Shown: positions 63-12,296 of the stretch, piece after piece
How positions within the stretch are numbered: the stretch's first letter is position 1
Layout of the letters: every line of letters begins with the position of its first letter
NCBI GenBank assembly: GCA_025996865.1
Contig: BNTV01000132.1
Span: forward strand, 1 to 12,296
Direction: 5' to 3'
DNA from: Bacteroidia bacterium
Lineage (GTDB): Bacteria; Bacteroidota; Bacteroidia; Bacteroidales; Azobacteroidaceae
Length of the DNA stretch: 12,296 nucleotides
Program-made: the position numbers and the translations under genes
Notes under the pieces: generated by a model
The model's input: the letters and a program-made list of their open reading frames with translations, nothing else
Told to the model about the DNA's origin: nothing
The model's database searches: none

Positions 63-1889
63 ATGAAAAGAAATCTTTTTTTTCTAATTATGATTGCAAT
101 TGCGTTAATAACAGGCAGTTGCAGCAACGACCTCGATGAAGTTCCTGCGCCTGCCGCGGGCAGCAGCGGTCATGCAATCACGTTTGAGTCCTGGACAAAC
201 AAACCGCTCCGGGCGGCTACTAAAGCCGACGACGTTACGGATTTTGCCGTGCTGGCTACGGATACGACCACGGGGGCGATAGACACGGTGCTTATTAACG
301 GTGTTCGCGTTACCGGCAGCAACGCTACGAGCTGGACTTACACTCCGCTTGCCTTCTGGCCGGAAACAGCCGCTGTTAATTTCTTTGCTTTCTCCCCGAC
401 GGCGGCAGTGGGTATTACCAACGGTGCAACAGCATTGGCGGGTCAATACGATACGATTCCCGGTGAACCAAGCATCGAGTATGAGTTGCCCACCGTGCTT
501 ACCAACCAGGCAGACTTGCTGGTGGCCCGTCATTCCGGCACTTATGCCGCTGAAGGCGCTTCCGGGGTTACCTTGAATTTCCGCCACGCCCTCTCGCGCG
601 TCCTGTTCCAGGCAAAGAGCGAAAGCTCGATGGGTTTTATCGTGTCGAGCATCAAGCTGAAAAATGTCAAGAGCAAGGCTACGCTGGATTTGAACAATGT
701 GCCCAAGGATGCCACAGCGTTTCCTTACCCGACCGATAATGCTACCATTGATACGGTCGGATACCAAACATTTTGGGAACCTGATAGCCCAACAGCACCC
801 ACCGTTGTTGACCTGGAGGCAAATCTGACAACTACTGCCGTTGCGGGCGGCGGCGCCTGGACTTACATTGTCGGCGACGCCGATGCGCTTTACGTCATTC
901 CGCAGGAAAACGAAGCTTCTGATTTGAAGAATGCAACCCTGGTAACCGGCGCAGACCCTTCTTCTCTGTTTTATATCGAGATTACCTATAAGGAAGATGG
1001 TTTAGGTGCGGTAGACAGGACTTATGCGGTTCCTGTTCCGGCCATCGTTGGCGATGCATATAAATCTTCCATCGCGTTTGAAATGGAGCGGCAATATACC
1101 TTCCAGTTTGAACTGTTTGGCAAAAAACCCATCGAATTTAAAGGTGTTACGGTAAGCGATTACGATGAAGTTACCCAGGAAGAGCTGCTTCGCTTGCATT
1201 GGGCAGGTTCAAACATCTATTATGACGCTGCGCTTAAGCATTTGACGTTTGCCGACAGCGACGATAAGAGCAAAGAGCAGTATCAGGGGGTTTATTTCAA
1301 GTGGGGCAGCCTTACAGGTATCTCGCCCCTAGGAGCATACGTTCAAGGCTCTACGGTGACTTATCCGATGGGAGGCGAGGCTAGTGCTGCTCCGGCTTGG
1401 ACGGCTATTTCTTACGTTACGTCTGATCCCGGCGCTCATCCCCGTGATGCTAAATACCTGACCGAAACAGCCTATGACACTATCAGCGGAGTAGGCGATA
1501 TATGCAAGTATTTAACAGAGAGGGGTTGGGCTCCAAAAGGTAAACGCTGGCGCATGCCGACTTCGGCTGAGTTTGGAGACGCGGGCGATTACGGTAATGT
1601 CGGCGCCACCACTTGGCCTGCTGTTTCTGCCGTGAATGCAGACGGCACCACTGCCCTTGCCAACGGAAAGCAGTTGCGAAAATTAAACACCCCGTTCTTC
1701 CCCACTTCCGGGTTTCGTAACTATACGGGGGGCGCAGTGGGCTACACGGGTTCGAACGGCTACTACTGGTCATCATCACCGTACAGCTCTACTAACGGCT
1801 TCAGCTTGCTCTTCGTTGTCCCGGCGGCGTACCCAGCGTACAGCCACGATCGGGCGGACGGCTTCCCTGTCCGCTGTGTGTCAGAATGA
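63..1889 (+). CDS. Fimbrillin-family lipoprotein with C-type-lectin-like C-terminal domain, candidate DGR target
   Basis: Probable surface adhesin or fimbrial subunit. Residues 1-20 form a lipoprotein signal peptide: a charged MKRN start, a hydrophobic core, then a lipobox ITGSC with Cys20 as the lipidation site. Residues ~37-350 read as an Mfa-like/FimA-like fimbrillin domain, with the usual features of an early ITFE strand, an Arg-Ala after the N-terminal linker (R50-A51), a W-Y-P-x-x-x-W-P segment near 91-100, FFAF at 107-110 and LNFRHALSRV at 171-180. Residues ~380-608 form a second domain with WRMPTSAEF (496-504), YYWSSS (567-572) and a terminal GFPVRCV, the signature of FISUMP/C-type-lectin-like domains; Cys481 and Cys605 could pair. 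In Bacteroidales this domain pair is a frequent DGR target. The ATG at 63 directly precedes the signal peptide; no clear Shine-Dalgarno is seen, which is normal in this phylum. The gene looks more GC-rich than the toxin-antitoxin region to its right. It lacks a T9SS sorting domain, so export as a Sec lipoprotein is inferred. Confidence 0.88.
   Translation: MKRNLFFLIMIAIALITGSCSNDLDEVPAPAAGSSGHAITFESWTNKPLRAATKADDVTDFAVLATDTTTGAIDTVLINGVRVTGSNATSWTYTPLAFWPETAAVNFFAFSPTAAVGITNGATALAGQYDTIPGEPSIEYELPTVLTNQADLLVARHSGTYAAEGASGVTLNFRHALSRVLFQAKSESSMGFIVSSIKLKNVKSKATLDLNNVPKDATAFPYPTDNATIDTVGYQTFWEPDSPTAPTVVDLEANLTTTAVAGGGAWTYIVGDADALYVIPQENEASDLKNATLVTGADPSSLFYIEITYKEDGLGAVDRTYAVPVPAIVGDAYKSSIAFEMERQYTFQFELFGKKPIEFKGVTVSDYDEVTQEELLRLHWAGSNIYYDAALKHLTFADSDDKSKEQYQGVYFKWGSLTGISPLGAYVQGSTVTYPMGGEASAAPAWTAISYVTSDPGAHPRDAKYLTETAYDTISGVGDICKYLTERGWAPKGKRWRMPTSAEFGDAGDYGNVGATTWPAVSAVNADGTTALANGKQLRKLNTPFFPTSGFRNYTGGAVGYTGSNGYYWSSSPYSSTNGFSLLFVVPAAYPAYSHDRADGFPVRCVSE
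1719..1880 (+). other. Candidate DGR variable region (VR) at the 3' end of the fimbrillin gene
   Basis: DGRs copy a template repeat into a target gene while changing template adenines, so AAC and AAT codons in the template become codons that differ at bases 1 and 2 and keep the third base. Here residues 581, 583, 585, 586, 590, 593, 594, 595, 596 and 599 are encoded by agc, ctc, gtt, gtc, tac, tac, agc, cac, gat and gac, all NNC or NNT and all reachable from AAC or AAT in that way. They are interleaved with fixed residues (F584, R597, A598, G600, F601) that match the family framework, in which these sites are typically Asn-rich before diversification. The segment ends just before the stop codon, as DGR VRs usually do. 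The limits are approximate because no template repeat is present for alignment. Confidence 0.62.
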
Positions 1890-1908: not shown

Positions 1909-1934
1909 TGACGATGGGATTTATCCCATCGTCA
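1909..1934 (+). other. Hairpin/cruciform just after the candidate VR
   Basis: The arms are 1909-1919 (TGACGATGGGA) and 1924-1934 (TCCCATCGTCA), a perfect 11-bp inverted repeat around a 4-nt loop (TTTA). It begins 19 bases after the fimbrillin stop. No T-tract follows (the next bases are AGGCCGG), so it is a poor intrinsic terminator. In characterised DGRs a short hairpin or cruciform directly downstream of the VR stimulates mutagenic homing, and the stem length, tetranucleotide loop and position here fit that role. The structure is read directly from the sequence; the role is inferred. Confidence 0.6.
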
Positions 1935-2578: not shown

Positions 2579-2785
2579 ATGGAACAGTTAACAGGAATAG
2601 AATACGAAAAAGATGCAACGGGGCGAACAAGGTACATCCGCATTGATATTGACAAATACGGCGAAAACGAGACTTTACAAGACTTCTTAGACGGAATCGA
2701 AGTAATGTTTAACAAAGACAAAGAAACCGTTACCCTGCAAGAATTTAACGAACATATTGATAAACGGCTAAAAGAATATGTATAA
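2579..2785 (+). CDS. Probable antitoxin of a type II toxin-antitoxin pair
   Basis: Small, charged protein of 68 residues encoded directly upstream of a RelE/ParE-type toxin, the classical antitoxin-first order. The N-terminal half (GRTRYIRIDIDKYG, residues 15-28) looks like a short beta strand leading into acidic helices (29-68), a plausible toxin-binding tail. I see no clear ribbon-helix-helix, helix-turn-helix or Phd motif, so the DNA-binding family cannot be named. Its last 8 bases overlap the toxin start, which implies translational coupling. The ATG at 2579 follows the promoter at 2522-2552 by a short leader. The antitoxin call depends mainly on the neighbour. Confidence 0.68.
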   Translation: MEQLTGIEYEKDATGRTRYIRIDIDKYGENETLQDFLDGIEVMFNKDKETVTLQEFNEHIDKRLKEYV

Positions 2786-3032
2786 AGTTGTTATCAATAA
2801 GCAGGTACTTAAATCGTTAGACAAAGTGCCTGCCGACTACCTTTTGAAAATTAGAGAAGCGGTAAACAGTTTAGAACAAGAACCGCGCCCATTTGGCTGT
2901 ATAAAAATGTCCGGCTTCGTAAATTTATATCGCATCCGTGCGGGCATCTACCGCATTGTTTATTCTATCGAAGACACTATTTTAACCGTCGAAATTGTTA
3001 AAATAGACCATCGAAGCAGGGTTTACAAATAA
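2778..3032 (+). CDS. RelE/ParE-family toxin
   Basis: 84 residues, the usual length for this superfamily. The N-terminus (MYKVVINKQVLKSLDKVP) forms the first strand and helix. The segment from residue 51, YRIRAGIYRIVYSIEDT, then VEIVKIDHRSRVYK to the C-terminus, fits the RelE/ParE pattern Y-R-x-R-x-G-x-Y-R-x-x-Y followed by a terminal H-R-x-x-V-Y. RelE-like members cleave mRNA on the ribosome, while ParE-like members poison gyrase; the basic C-terminal HRSRVYK suits an mRNA interferase but does not prove it. The start overlaps the antitoxin stop by 8 bases. The gene faces the permease gene head-on, with 145 bases between stops and no strong terminator there. Confidence 0.85.
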   Translation: MYKVVINKQVLKSLDKVPADYLLKIREAVNSLEQEPRPFGCIKMSGFVNLYRIRAGIYRIVYSIEDTILTVEIVKIDHRSRVYK

Positions 3033-6407: not shown

Positions 6408-9400
6408 TTATCGCATTAAACTGACTTTAACGCTTATTCCGAAACTGGATTTGGCGAGCTTGTATGCCGAAGCCGAAACCAAAGGATTACTGATTTGCCT
6501 GTCGAAAAAGGCTTGAACGGATACTAATTTACTCAAACTGTAATCGGCCGAAAGCTTGATCATGGTTTGCGAATTTCCGGCGGTAGCCTGCGTCAGATTG
6601 TCTTGAATCTTGCGAATCAGACTTTGTGTCATATTGTAGGAAACATCGACCGCAACTTTCATTTCGTTATTGAAATTGGGACCGCCGGTTTTCCTGATTT
6701 TCAGTACGCGGTTGAAATTTTCAAAACGATAGCCGGTACCGAGTGTGAGATTCTGCTGTTTGGTTTCTACAATTTGGTAGGCAGAAACATTCAGATTGAC
6801 ATTCCGGTTGGTATTGTACTTGAGGGAAAGACTCATATTGTTCATGAGCGTGGAATTGACTCCCAACAACGGATTAAATGCTTCGACGATACTGACGGCT
6901 GTAATATCGTAAGGAGATGACGGATAGGGATGATTGTCCGTCACATTTTTGATGAATCCAAGTTCGTCGTCACCGGCGCCGACCCAGGTACTGAAAGAAT
7001 TGAAAGCGCCGACGCTATAAGTGCTTGTATAAGCATGTTCAATCGTAAATGACTTGAAGTTTTTCTTGATAAACGGTACTTGCAGCAAGCCGTCGTAAGT
7101 GATTTTCCAGTTGGGAAGAAGTTTCTTCAAGGCAGGGAAAGCCGACAGTCCGACGGATTTCACATTTTGTCCGGTATAGGCTGCAATGAAAGCCGGAATC
7201 AATACATCGGTGGAATTTAACTCGACGCCGCCGTTTTGGGGATCAAAAGGCCGGCCGGCCAAAGGATCGTCTTTCATAAAACCGGAATTCGGATAAGTTA
7301 TTCTGTTATAAGCCTGTTGCAAACGATTAGCGATAGTTTCCCGGTTGTCCAGAAAGTTTTGGAATGCTTGGGAATGATAGCCGTTGTTGGCATTGCTCGA
7401 TTCGAAAGCCGTGCCTAAGGAAACAGTGGTCATTCTGAAATTACCGGTTAATTGGCGGGGCATGGAACTCAGATTATTTCCGTACATGAAATAAGTTTGT
7501 TGCTGGTCTGTCCTTGTGCGGGTAGCATTCAAGGCGATGCGCATACCGGTAATCGGCTCCAGATTTGCCGTAAAATTGAAAGTTCCCGTTTTATTAAGCA
7601 TGGCCGGCGTGATGTTATTTTCATTATTTACCAGCCAATTATTTCTTTTCGCTCTTTCGATGTAGCTTTCATCAACCAGTCCGAAAGCGAAATCCAAGCC
7701 GGGTGCGCTCCCGTACGGGGTTGAATTTTGACCGAAAAAATCACCGATATAAGGACCGAAATTGGGAAGGTTCATGTCATTTCCTTCCTGGTAAGAAAAA
7801 CCGAACGACCTTACCATCATCAATCCCCGGGCTACGACTTGCATGGTCTTGTACCAGCGTTCATCTTCGAGCGGCGGCAATTGTGAAATGACAAGTTTCA
7901 GGTTCACCGAGTCTTTGTTCTGGATTTGAATGGAATTATTGTCAAGGGTTTTGTATTTGAGGTCGTACAACTTGCCTTTCCCGTCCCGCGCAACAATTCG
8001 TAAGCGCTTGTTATTCAACTGATGAGCAAGGACTGTCGCCGAATCGGAATTGAGCGTGACATTGCCTTCGTATTTTTTCTTTTTCAATTCGGCTTTTTGC
8101 GCTTCCGCATCTTTAGTTGCATTTGCAGTGGCATTTGCATTGGCGCCGGTTGCTCTCCTCGTATTCCGGACGGAAGTTGAATTTCTGGTAACGGTAAATC
8201 TTTTATTGGCATCCGATAAAAATTTGGATTTATTGTACAGACTCAGCAAATCGAATTGAATATTGTCTATTCCGATGGTCCGGTTGTTGCTGATCACATT
8301 TCCCATTTCAATACTTTCCGCTTCGGGATTGTCTTCCGAACCGAGCGTAGCACCTCTTTGCCATTTGTATCCGCTATTATACGTCAGGGCGCCTTTGATA
8401 AAACCGAGCGCCGGGATCATATTGAAAGGCAGTGTATAGGTGGCTGTAAAGGCTTGTTTGTAATCCATCGGATCACCCATATCCTGAATGTCTTGCCAGA
8501 CGGATTTTTTCTTTCTGATGTATTCATCGTCCGGAAGGAAGTAATCGTCTGTTCTTTGTTGAAGCGTTTGTATCCGTGCATCTGTCGCCGAATTGAAAGA
8601 GAGATTCAGGTTTTTTGTCAAACTCCATTGGACTTTCAACGAGCGGTTCCAGTAAAAATCATCGCGGAAAGAAGGCGGAAGCATGTTTTCGCCCAAATCA
8701 CCCAAATCCCGCAGTTGCACTTCATAATAGTTCCGGGTTCTTTCCATATTGATATCCAGAATTTTCGGCAAGTAACCGATTTCAATATTCTCCAGAAATT
8801 TCGAACCCGAACCGGAAGATGCCGTTCTTTGTTGTCCTTCTTTCGGCTTTTTGTCTGTTTTACCGAAAGGTTTCCAAGGCTTAAAAGGCAGGGAGTAGGA
8901 ATAATTCAGGTTTGCCGCATCGGCAATTGTTTGTTCGCGTTGTGTAGTTGCATCTTGCAGATAGTCTTCCACATGCGAATAATCGAAAGTGAAATTGGCC
9001 GGATCGTAAGGCATCGCCTTTTTACTCCGGATATCTGCCTTGACATTATTGAAAGCAATCGATTTGGTTGTTTTCTTATTCTGGGCAATTTGGCTGAGGG
9101 AATCTCTTTCCGCCTGTGTTTCCATCGCGTCCAAAGCGTCTTTCAGCAAAACATCCTGATCCAAAGGGTTGTATTTCGGACTGATAACGTCTTCCGTGTA
9201 GGAATAATAAAACGGGAGGCTGACTTTGGCTTTTTCGGGGAAAAAGCGGCCGAGGTTGATTTGCGAGGAGACATTGTATTGATAGATATCATCAATGTTC
9301 CGGTCCATAATGCCTTGATCCAGACTGCCGAATCCTGCGGTTTCTTTCCTTCCCGAAAAGCTGACCGAACCCATGTCCGAAAGCCCGACATAGAGATTGG

Positions 9401-12296
9401 CGTTGCCTGCCCAACCTCCGTCTTCGTTGAAATCGGTCAATCGCAGTTCGTTCGCCCAGATTTCTGCGGATTGAGTAGCGCGGGAATTGTTCCGGACGCC
9501 AATCATGACTACCCGGATGTCGGAAATGGTCGGATTTCCGACAACGGTTACTTTGTTCATCGGTTTTTCCGGGTCGAAAATGGAGAAAGGCGTGTAATAG
9601 GTAACTACCGAACCGGCTTTCCGTTTTTCCTTGTTTCTTTCCAATTTGAGATTTGTGAGCAGTTCAAAGGGGAAATCGATCATGTTTGATTCGGGCCAAA
9701 CGATTTTCCTTGATTCGGTTGTCTGGATGTAACGTCCTTGAGGCGTGAGTTTTAACGGTACTTCGTATTCGTAGTAATTGTTCTTATAGTCGGAGCCTAA
9801 ACGGATGAATACGGATAAATCGTTGTCCTGTAAATTCGTAGGTCTGTCGAGCACTTTTTCGGCGTGGGTAAACATTTGCAGGCGGCGGTATTGGCGCGTA
9901 TCCAAACCGGTTGATTTGTAAATGGCGCGGGCATCGCCTTGCGAAAGATCGGATATGAGAAGCGACATGGATTGTTCGTTTTGCTGCCGCAACTGGGTTT
10001 GTCCGGGATCCAGAATCCGGTTTACCCCCGGAGGCATAACGTAATTGACCGGTTCTTTGCTGCCGTTTTCTTCGATGTTTACCGTTGCCATGCTGATGCT
10101 GCCGCGTCCCTGGGGCGGCAACTTGGGATCGAACAAATCTTTTGTGTAGGTACGCCACTGGCCGTAAGCGAATTGCAGCGTTCCGAAACGAAGGATGACG
10201 GAATCGGAAAAATTAGTCAGAACCATCCGGATAAAACGGATGGTTTTGAAATCGGGAATATTGCCTACTTTCTTTTCGTATTCGTTGATGGGAATACTGA
10301 ACTTATACCAGTTAACCGTTTCACTTTTACCGTTTTTCAACAAGGGTTTCGCTTCCATTTTTTGCACGATGTAGTTTTTACCGACAATCATACTGTCGGG
10401 GCGAATCGAGATTTTATACTGGAAGTATTTTTCGGTTTCGTTGAGGGTATTGTCCTGGTTAATGTCTTCTACATCAGGAACAAGCCGGGCTGTCGTATTG
10501 TAGTTTTCGGGCGAAGTGGAAGCGTCGGCCGAGTTTCCTTCCACGCCGTTATAATGTTTGTATCTTTCGAGAATGGATAATTGCATTCTGTCGTAATCGC
10601 TGCCTCTGAAATAGTGGTAGTTATCTCCGGCCGGGTCATTGAAAGGAGAAAACAGGTCATTCCGCATGGTTTCTTTCGCTTCCGGGGAAAGTACACGATC
10701 CAGTTCGGTCAGATAGTTGGCATAAGTAGGATAAGTAAATTCGGCTTCGGTGGATAAACCGTTGAATCCTACGTCCTGTATTTTTCTTGCACCGGCTGCA
10801 TTGTCAAAAGCATATACCATGGACTGTTGTTTGGGCACCAAGCCCCAGACTGTTTTTTCGACTTTGGTGGTGTCTCCGTCAATCGGCAAGCCGTTTTCGA
10901 AGAATTTTTTTTCGTCTTTCAGAATATCTTCCGATATTTCGCCCAGGTTGAAGTATAAATCTCCTCCGCGGGCATTTTCTTTTCCGATGAACGGGTCTAA
11001 AAGCCAAAATTCGATGGTTTCGATGTTGTTGGATTCAAAATCGGTATTTCCGCTTTCGATTCTGCGGGTGATACCGCCCCAACGGTCTTCGGGATTGCGG
11101 AGCTTCCCGTCGGGATTCATTCCCAAAGCGTCCAAGTTGTACGGTCCGCGTTCCTGCGGGTAATAGGCAAGGTTGAGTACGGGAATTGTTGCGGATTCTC
11201 CGAAAGTCGGGTCTTTATCGGGGAAAAGTTCGCGTTCCTCAATTTCCCGCACATAGTGATTCGACAATTGGTCTAAATCGTTTTTGATATGGCCGGGCGT
11301 GAGCGACGATTTGCGGGTGAATAAAGCGTCGATGTAATACCAAGCCAGCAACGACCGGTTTTTGCCGTAATCTATGTCGTTTGCTTTTTTGGATTCCGGG
11401 AATGTAGAAGGCGTTGACGCCAAGCTCCACGAATAAGGAGAACGCAGGTCGATGATTTGTTTGGCTTGTTCGAAATCGTCGATATAGGAATAGTTTCCTC
11501 CGTATTTGCTTTTGTAATGACCGGGAATCAGGTGGGCGTACTCGGCGGTGAAAGTGATTTGGGAAGGTTCGGTGAGTTCCAATAAAGGGATTTTGTCCAA
11601 CAAATTGGTCAGGAGCTGCGATTGCGTTGCGTAATTGACGTTGAATCCGAACAAGGTATTGTCGATGGATTCCTGTCCGGGTTCGGTTTTCATTGTGAGC
11701 GGCATTTCGCTCAGATTCATGATGGTAGCTCCGATGTTGAATTGCTTGTTTACGGCATAATTCAGATTCATGCCCATCATGGTTTTCCGTTGCATACCGA
11801 AAGTCGAACGGTCTTCGGATGAAGTCTGGATATTCGCATTTTCATACACCGGATTGATGATGGTCACTTGACCGGTAGCATAGTCGATGGTATAATCGAC
11901 GTTTTCTTTCAGCCGGACGCCATTTGCGGTGACCGTGACCGAACCTTTGGCAATGTTCATTCCGTTGAGGTTGATGTTGGATGCATTCGAACCTTTATAT
12001 TCCCCGCTGAGGATGAATTTGTTCTTTTCGGCCGTTTGCCGCGCCACAGTCAATGTCGAATCGTACAGTTCCTGAAATACATATTTGTCGGCAATCCGGT
12101 CGTCGCCAATCATTTTCCTTAGATGAGAACCAAAAGGTTCGACTACGGGGAAGATGATTTTTCCGGCATCGGGAATTACGGTGAGGCCGGGTACAAAGTC
12201 GAAGAATCCGTCGGGATGCGCTTCATTGCGGGAATCCAGACGGTCTAATCTTTCAACCCTGAGCAACAGCTGATTAGCGATTTTTCCTTCGGTGAT
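6408..12296 (-). CDS. sprA: SprA/Sov, outer-membrane translocon of the type IX secretion system (5' end outside the window)
   Basis: SprA forms a very large outer-membrane beta-barrel through which folded T9SS cargo passes; it is also needed for gliding in motile relatives. The frame stays open to the right edge (residues ITEGKIANQLL at the border), giving the last 1962 residues of a protein that is usually about 2400-2500 long. Recognisable pieces: GRIIFPVLEPFGSHLR-like KIIFPVVEPFGSHLRKM near residues 48-64, AGDNYHYFRGSDYD with EGNS nearby, a Ca-site-like DINQDNTLNETE at 611-622, and long runs of alternating polar/aromatic strands to the C-terminal SVKVSLMR, typical of an outer-membrane strand. 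An Ala/Asn/Lys-rich insertion lies at ~1382-1410. There is no frameshift or internal stop. The TTG at 12266 is not the real start. The stop is 62 bases before the DedA-family gene. Confidence 0.95.
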   Translation of the reverse strand: MTEGKIANQLLLRVERLDRLDSRNEAHPDGFFDFVPGLTVIPDAGKIIFPVVEPFGSHLRKMIGDDRIADKYVFQELYDSTLTVARQTAEKNKFILSGEYKGSNASNINLNGMNIAKGSVTVTANGVRLKENVDYTIDYATGQVTIINPVYENANIQTSSEDRSTFGMQRKTMMGMNLNYAVNKQFNIGATIMNLSEMPLTMKTEPGQESIDNTLFGFNVNYATQSQLLTNLLDKIPLLELTEPSQITFTAEYAHLIPGHYKSKYGGNYSYIDDFEQAKQIIDLRSPYSWSLASTPSTFPESKKANDIDYGKNRSLLAWYYIDALFTRKSSLTPGHIKNDLDQLSNHYVREIEERELFPDKDPTFGESATIPVLNLAYYPQERGPYNLDALGMNPDGKLRNPEDRWGGITRRIESGNTDFESNNIETIEFWLLDPFIGKENARGGDLYFNLGEISEDILKDEKKFFENGLPIDGDTTKVEKTVWGLVPKQQSMVYAFDNAAGARKIQDVGFNGLSTEAEFTYPTYANYLTELDRVLSPEAKETMRNDLFSPFNDPAGDNYHYFRGSDYDRMQLSILERYKHYNGVEGNSADASTSPENYNTTARLVPDVEDINQDNTLNETEKYFQYKISIRPDSMIVGKNYIVQKMEAKPLLKNGKSETVNWYKFSIPINEYEKKVGNIPDFKTIRFIRMVLTNFSDSVILRFGTLQFAYGQWRTYTKDLFDPKLPPQGRGSISMATVNIEENGSKEPVNYVMPPGVNRILDPGQTQLRQQNEQSMSLLISDLSQGDARAIYKSTGLDTRQYRRLQMFTHAEKVLDRPTNLQDNDLSVFIRLGSDYKNNYYEYEVPLKLTPQGRYIQTTESRKIVWPESNMIDFPFELLTNLKLERNKEKRKAGSVVTYYTPFSIFDPEKPMNKVTVVGNPTISDIRVVMIGVRNNSRATQSAEIWANELRLTDFNEDGGWAGNANLYVGLSDMGSVSFSGRKETAGFGSLDQGIMDRNIDDIYQYNVSSQINLGRFFPEKAKVSLPFYYSYTEDVISPKYNPLDQDVLLKDALDAMETQAERDSLSQIAQNKKTTKSIAFNNVKADIRSKKAMPYDPANFTFDYSHVEDYLQDATTQREQTIADAANLNYSYSLPFKPWKPFGKTDKKPKEGQQRTASSGSGSKFLENIEIGYLPKILDINMERTRNYYEVQLRDLGDLGENMLPPSFRDDFYWNRSLKVQWSLTKNLNLSFNSATDARIQTLQQRTDDYFLPDDEYIRKKKSVWQDIQDMGDPMDYKQAFTATYTLPFNMIPALGFIKGALTYNSGYKWQRGATLGSEDNPEAESIEMGNVISNNRTIGIDNIQFDLLSLYNKSKFLSDANKRFTVTRNSTSVRNTRRATGANANATANATKDAEAQKAELKKKKYEGNVTLNSDSATVLAHQLNNKRLRIVARDGKGKLYDLKYKTLDNNSIQIQNKDSVNLKLVISQLPPLEDERWYKTMQVVARGLMMVRSFGFSYQEGNDMNLPNFGPYIGDFFGQNSTPYGSAPGLDFAFGLVDESYIERAKRNNWLVNNENNITPAMLNKTGTFNFTANLEPITGMRIALNATRTRTDQQQTYFMYGNNLSSMPRQLTGNFRMTTVSLGTAFESSNANNGYHSQAFQNFLDNRETIANRLQQAYNRITYPNSGFMKDDPLAGRPFDPQNGGVELNSTDVLIPAFIAAYTGQNVKSVGLSAFPALKKLLPNWKITYDGLLQVPFIKKNFKSFTIEHAYTSTYSVGAFNSFSTWVGAGDDELGFIKNVTDNHPYPSSPYDITAVSIVEAFNPLLGVNSTLMNNMSLSLKYNTNRNVNLNVSAYQIVETKQQNLTLGTGYRFENFNRVLKIRKTGGPNFNNEMKVAVDVSYNMTQSLIRKIQDNLTQATAGNSQTMIKLSADYSLSKLVSVQAFFDRQISNPLVSASAYKLAKSSFGISVKVSLMR
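8115..8144 (-). repeat. Short hexanucleotide near-tandem repeat inside sprA
   Basis: Read on the coding strand, five 6-base units of form GCN-AAY/AAT or GCN-ACT encode Ala-Asn, Ala-Asn, Ala-Thr, Ala-Asn, Ala-Thr (residues 1385-1394 of the partial protein). A lysine-rich stretch follows (KAELKKKKY, to base 8070). It probably marks a flexible loop between barrel strands. Units of six bases change length without breaking the frame. Confidence 0.55.

Follow-up and report, generated by a model that had tools for sequence, protein, structure and literature searches.

Does the 3' end of the fimbrillin-like gene in this stretch of DNA (12,296 nucleotides, hereafter the window) record the mutagenic homing of a diversity-generating retroelement (DGR), and, if so, which template and enzyme acted on it? 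A sequence-only reading had answered the first part in the affirmative from this one copy: ten codons among residues 581-599, in a C-type-lectin-like fold, looked like AAC or AAT triplets altered only at adenines. Comparison with paralogs in the same genome and with genomes of the same genus makes it highly probable that this gene is one of the remote targets of a DGR, with a 3' end rewritten by adenine-directed homing.

The target gene and its variable end

Table 1. Coordinates of the target gene and its parts in the window
Feature	Positions	Strand	Basis or remark
Target gene	63..1889	+	608-aa fimbrillin-like protein; C-terminal domain FISUMP-like, C-type-lectin-like
Variable region (VR) with constant ends, homologous to the G026 template	1706..1887	+	DNA match of the template from the same-genus genome G026 to C132 (the window contig), 77% identity
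Variable codons 551-599	1713..1859	+	Codon alignment of 11 copies and comparison with the template
Constant stretch closing the VR at its 3' end, where an IMH (initiation of mutagenic homing) would lie	1860..1880	+	Codons 600-606 nearly constant in 11 copies; putative role
Perfect 12-bp inverted repeat, 20 bases past the stop	1909..1934	.	Possible homing hairpin or terminator; role doubtful

Tested as a fimbrillin (Mfa_like_1, type V pilus proteins), the product scored above the family cut-off and gave a fold match. It fell short of the curated cut-offs for FISUMP (25.5 of 33.9 bits for PF09603 and 21.1 of 41.65 bits for TIGR02145), so we call the C-terminal domain FISUMP-like only. Structure comparison returned lectin-like folds for the target, a modest support for the C-type-lectin fold; by sequence, a search of solved structures gave 3ufi at E 0.047 and nothing meaningful for the C-terminal domain, and an Rfam search returned no match. 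The gene probably encodes a surface protein of the type-V-pilus (fimbrillin) kind, with the changed residues on a C-type-lectin-like end. Elsewhere in the window, we noted an intergenic perfect 18-bp inverted repeat with a 4-base spacer (2169-2208), a small gene pair (2579-3032, + strand) that is probably a toxin-antitoxin module, its second member being a ParE-type toxin (PF05016), and a gene for a SprA-type secretion/motility protein (6408-12296, - strand) that is truncated by the contig end.

Gene, frame, residues, and coordinates of the sequence-only reading all match the sequence. The ten codons it had singled out are 581 S AGC, 583 L CTC, 585 V GTT, 586 V GTC, 590 Y TAC, 593 Y TAC, 594 S AGC, 595 H CAC, 596 D GAT, and 599 D GAC. 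Set against the G026 template, nine of them can indeed be derived from AAC or AAT by adenine changes, and these nine are every AAC/AAT template codon between 581 and 599; codon 586 is AGC in the template and needs one non-adenine change. As a footprint in its own right, the pattern is at chance level, since at least ten such codons occur in 506 of the 590 stretches of 19 codons along the gene, 61% of whose codons end in C or T. Without the relatives, the pattern therefore has no weight, and we rejected it as proof of a DGR by itself. The proposed start of the VR at position 1719 (codon 553) fits the variation of codons 553, 560, 561, 565, 574, 577, and 578 among the 11 copies of the own genome. 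As had been claimed, the gene ends in a VR, but this VR is longer than the ten codons, with template homology over 1706-1887. The original observation is thus confirmed in part, and its interpretation as mutagenic homing is supported, by the own-genome copies, the G026 template, and the sister-locus pair described below rather than by the codon pattern.

Adenine-biased variation in a dispersed family and against a same-genus template

When positions 1640-1889 were used as a DNA query, the own genome gave 11 places, counting the one in the window; the other ten are 70-83% identical, and each lies in an open frame of the family. The whole-protein profile gave 15 own-genome matches, namely 12 fimbrillin copies with the C-terminal domain, one without it, and two distant genes; the twelfth fimbrillin copy (C37) has a more diverged end. 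When the 11 copies are aligned, the noted codons vary at positions 1 and 2 and keep the third base; in 150 of the 153 cells at the 14 AAC/AAT codons of the template, that base is C or T. Within the VR, positions with an adenine consensus vary in 146/394 cells versus 181/1154 at other positions. Upstream of the VR, adenine positions vary like the others (58/548 versus 196/1813 cells), so the adenine excess is confined to the VR.

We searched 58 genomes, the own one included, with the VR. Matches were found in four of them, and long ones only in the own genome and in G026, which has five. One of the five, on contig C144, is a template, with AAC or AAT at the codons that vary in the targets; before it stand a fimbrillin target gene, a 158-aa gene, and an Avd-type gene. 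The Avd-type gene matches PF22296 at 41.6 bits (cut-off 40). No Pfam family matches the 158-aa gene; its counterpart in a second G026 cassette, on contig C92 (35% identical), reaches 20.7 bits for MutS domain I (cut-off 20.6). Directly compared, the VR on C144 differs from the adjoining template at 13/48 adenines versus 1/135 other bases, the window copy differs from it at 22/46 adenines versus 19/133 other bases, and the 11 own copies together differ at 246 of 504 adenines versus 212 of 1462 non-adenines (C 78/571, G 54/484, T 80/407). At the codon level the footprint of the window copy is less clean: of the 60 codons compared, 30 differ from the template, and adenine changes suffice for 13 of these, whereas 17 need at least one other change. 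Some of the latter changes recur in the own copies, which would follow from divergence of the own template from that of G026; part of the 17 reflects template divergence between the two genomes.

At the sister locus, the C144 target and P0010 (FACS18947_2470), from another genome, differ at 14 of 58 VR residues and at none of 234 outside it, so this type of DGR is at work, or was until very recently, in the sister lineage. Placed by offset, 13 of the 14 differences are at template codons AAC or AAT and the remaining one is at AGC. Two contigs carry an identical copy of the 158-aa neighbor; the longer, of 19,031 bases, matches the P0010 contig in length, and we take it to be that contig. The window gene and its nearest relative, P0002, are too distant for a test of confinement to the VR (46/541 differences outside, 25/58 inside).

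At non-adenine positions, the window copy has 10 differences from the own-copy consensus in 130, nine in the 5' half of the VR and one in the 3' half. Over all 11 copies the counts are 97 and 56, with two copies reversed; the excess in the 5' half fits copying that begins at the 3' end. Signs that the VR has been reset in the own genome are mixed, as judged by base differences. Among the eight closest copies, third positions at non-adenine sites differ in 21/756 cases in the VR 3' half versus 193/2009 upstream, but over all non-adenine sites the contrast is small (155/1736 versus 604/6027), and the window differs from its closest copy (L007) more there than upstream (5/62 versus 8/216).

We propose that RNA of an adenine-rich template repeat would be copied into cDNA by a DGR reverse transcriptase that acts with Avd and errs at adenines, and that this cDNA would replace the homologous 3' end of the gene. 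Replacement would begin at the constant end (1860-1880) and run a variable distance upstream. Past homing is strongly supported; in the own genome the system may or may not still be active.

Whether the inverted repeat behind the stop serves as a homing hairpin is doubtful. A hairpin behind the VR matters for BPP-1 homing, according to the part of PMC3240598 drawn on here, and the same type of stem stands behind seven own-template loci of the genus (L039, L129, L130, L131, L135, L136, and L139). Among the 11 own copies, only two carry a perfect stem of at least 7 bp, with a loop of up to 8, in the 110 bases past the stop, so we rejected the hairpin as a family trait and gave it no weight as support. 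A transcription terminator is a possible alternative role.

The missing core and the rival explanations

A whole-genome search for an adenine-biased template beside a DGR reverse transcriptase, the check put forward with the sequence-only reading, gave a divided answer. No template was found in the own assembly: the VR DNA search led to the 11 places, all family frames; a further DNA search, with the template region of G026 as query, led to 10 places and a pattern search to seven matches, all among these 11; and a repeat search of the window showed no long repeat of the VR. The own assembly yielded no counterpart of the 158-aa gene, and no Avd was found in the own genome, a weak negative since the control genomes gave no match either. 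One DGR-type reverse transcriptase was found, tied to another template: RVT_1 matches lie on four own contigs, of which only C133 carries IGNLTSQ, which we take to be the DGR-type motif.

Contig C144 of G026 holds no reverse transcriptase. It ends 929 bases past the template, behind an IS200-like transposase gene (PF01797; L039 232-630, + strand) that lies where the enzyme would be expected. Of the two RVT_1 places in G026, that on C9 belongs to a prophage-like DGR and that on C92 to a DGR with a different template, and we rejected both as the source of the enzyme for the C144 template because each has its own template/VR pair. The own assembly is 88.21% complete, in 421 contigs. A contig end falls no more than 62 bases from six of the 11 target genes, so assembly may have dropped a further sequence of this kind. 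The template and enzyme that acted on the window copy would then be in assembly gaps or lost from the genome.

To the second of these outcomes we give a real, if minority, share of the probability. The family would have been diversified by a DGR whose core (template, Avd, and reverse transcriptase) has since been lost, leaving the copy frozen, a reading that also accepts past homing and departs from ours only as to the present state. Core parts were not found in the own assembly, Treponema denticola strains without the core DGR retain target genes (PMC4891356, in the part drawn on here), and the window's non-adenine differences from the own consensus fit such a relic; the incomplete assembly, with its targets at contig ends, speaks against it, as does the scarcity of third-position differences in the VR 3' half, which looks as if it had been reset, small as the contrast is over all non-adenine sites. 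It is rather improbable that the reverse transcriptase of another cassette, such as C133, acts in trans with an unassembled template for this fimbrillin family. C133 does carry the only DGR-type reverse transcriptase of the own genome, and G026 likewise has its DGR reverse transcriptases away from the template contig, but the enzymes of C133, C9, and C92 each have a template/VR pair of their own, and the enzyme proper to the G026 template may lie beyond the point where its contig stops.

Ordinary divergence of paralogs, with diversifying selection on the binding face and no retroelement, is very unlikely and is contradicted by the comparison with the template. It would be compatible with the chance level of the codon pattern and with the differences between paralogs outside the VR. 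Selection on the protein would not, however, limit change to the adenines of a separate repeat, as on C144, nor does it give the confined differences between two genomes at the sister locus, and adenine and other sites are equal upstream.

Known systems and other DGRs of the genus

Read as a remote DGR target, the window gene belongs to a family that resembles the DGR targets of Treponema denticola in being dispersed and in differing mostly at template adenines. In the passages of PMC4891356 used here, that system has one template and dispersed targets, seven in ATCC35405, many of them predicted lipoproteins, with VRs about 77% alike that differ mostly at template adenines. It belongs to another phylum, whereas here there are 11 DNA-alignable fimbrillin-type copies and a template only in a same-genus genome. 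According to a review (PMC12632263), Bacteroides DGRs diversify the tip pilins of type V pili; they have in common with the present case a Bacteroidales host, a pilin-type target, and a C-terminal variable end. Unlike the DGR of Bordetella phage BPP-1 with Mtd, as far as it is described in the part of the source consulted, the target is a cellular surface protein and not a phage tail protein, the template is not adjacent, and a 12-bp stem lacks the GRNA loop, a hairpin being present in 2/11 own copies only.

This kind of system is already known; what makes the case interesting is how large the dispersed target family is and that the lineage is one of symbionts. The family adds a large dispersed set of DGR targets, 11 DNA-alignable copies versus the seven given for ATCC35405 in the cited part. 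It suggests that adhesins are diversified in a programmed way in a lineage whose members include bacteria named Candidatus Symbiothrix. A title in the reference list of PMC2717939 presents Candidatus Symbiothrix dinenymphae as a bristle-like ectosymbiont of termite gut protists, and we infer that the window bacterium lives on protists. We tentatively suggest that in one gut symbiont associated with protists a single template RNA may rewrite the termini of roughly a dozen dispersed pilus-type adhesins, giving each cell a reshuffling set of lectin-like tips with which to recognize its protist host. If active, the system lets one ask whether the choice of symbiotic partner is fed by programmed mutation. 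Judging by titles and abstract openings, and with subscription papers mostly outside the scope, none of the papers listed on DGRs with termites, protist symbionts, fimbriae, Dysgonomonas, and fimbrillin dealt with this.

With a DGR reverse transcriptase as query, 12 of the genus's 38 genomes, the own one included, gave matches at E up to 1e-10, and an adenine-biased template/VR pair was clear in 13 of the 21 loci examined (for example, 17 adenine and 0 other changes at L131, and 24 and 0 at L136). L131 330-419, L142 3742-3850, and L145 were dropped from the pair listing as palindromes or AT-rich chance matches, together with one reverse reading of the L143 pair. Many adenine-biased pairs lie at L128-L146, in same-genus genomes, several of which have more than one DGR reverse transcriptase. 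The complete cassettes of the genus (G026 C92, which is L143, and L130, L131, L135, and L136) show 10-24 adenine changes and none at other bases; that of C92 holds a MutS_I-like gene, Avd, and a reverse transcriptase. They differ from the window family in having other templates and a target that adjoins the cassette.

In the own genome, C133 (L053, about 110-2563, - strand) carries a second, complete DGR with an FGE-sulfatase-like target, an HRDC-domain gene, and a reverse transcriptase. Its template lies in frame inside the 3' end of the reverse transcriptase frame, an overlap that forms a described class (PMC3521204, in the portion cited), and 20/45 adenines are changed versus 3 other bases; as a source for the fimbrillin VR, this FGE-type template is ruled out by its sequence. 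The phage-like DGR of G026 C9 (L146, 3331-3636) has its own template pair, with 15/29 adenines changed and 1 other base. A search of relatives' contigs, with own-genome records left aside, found related fimbrillin genes at 17 loci of Prevotella sp. Kf353_bin95 (L077-L090 and L092-L094), perhaps another large target family.
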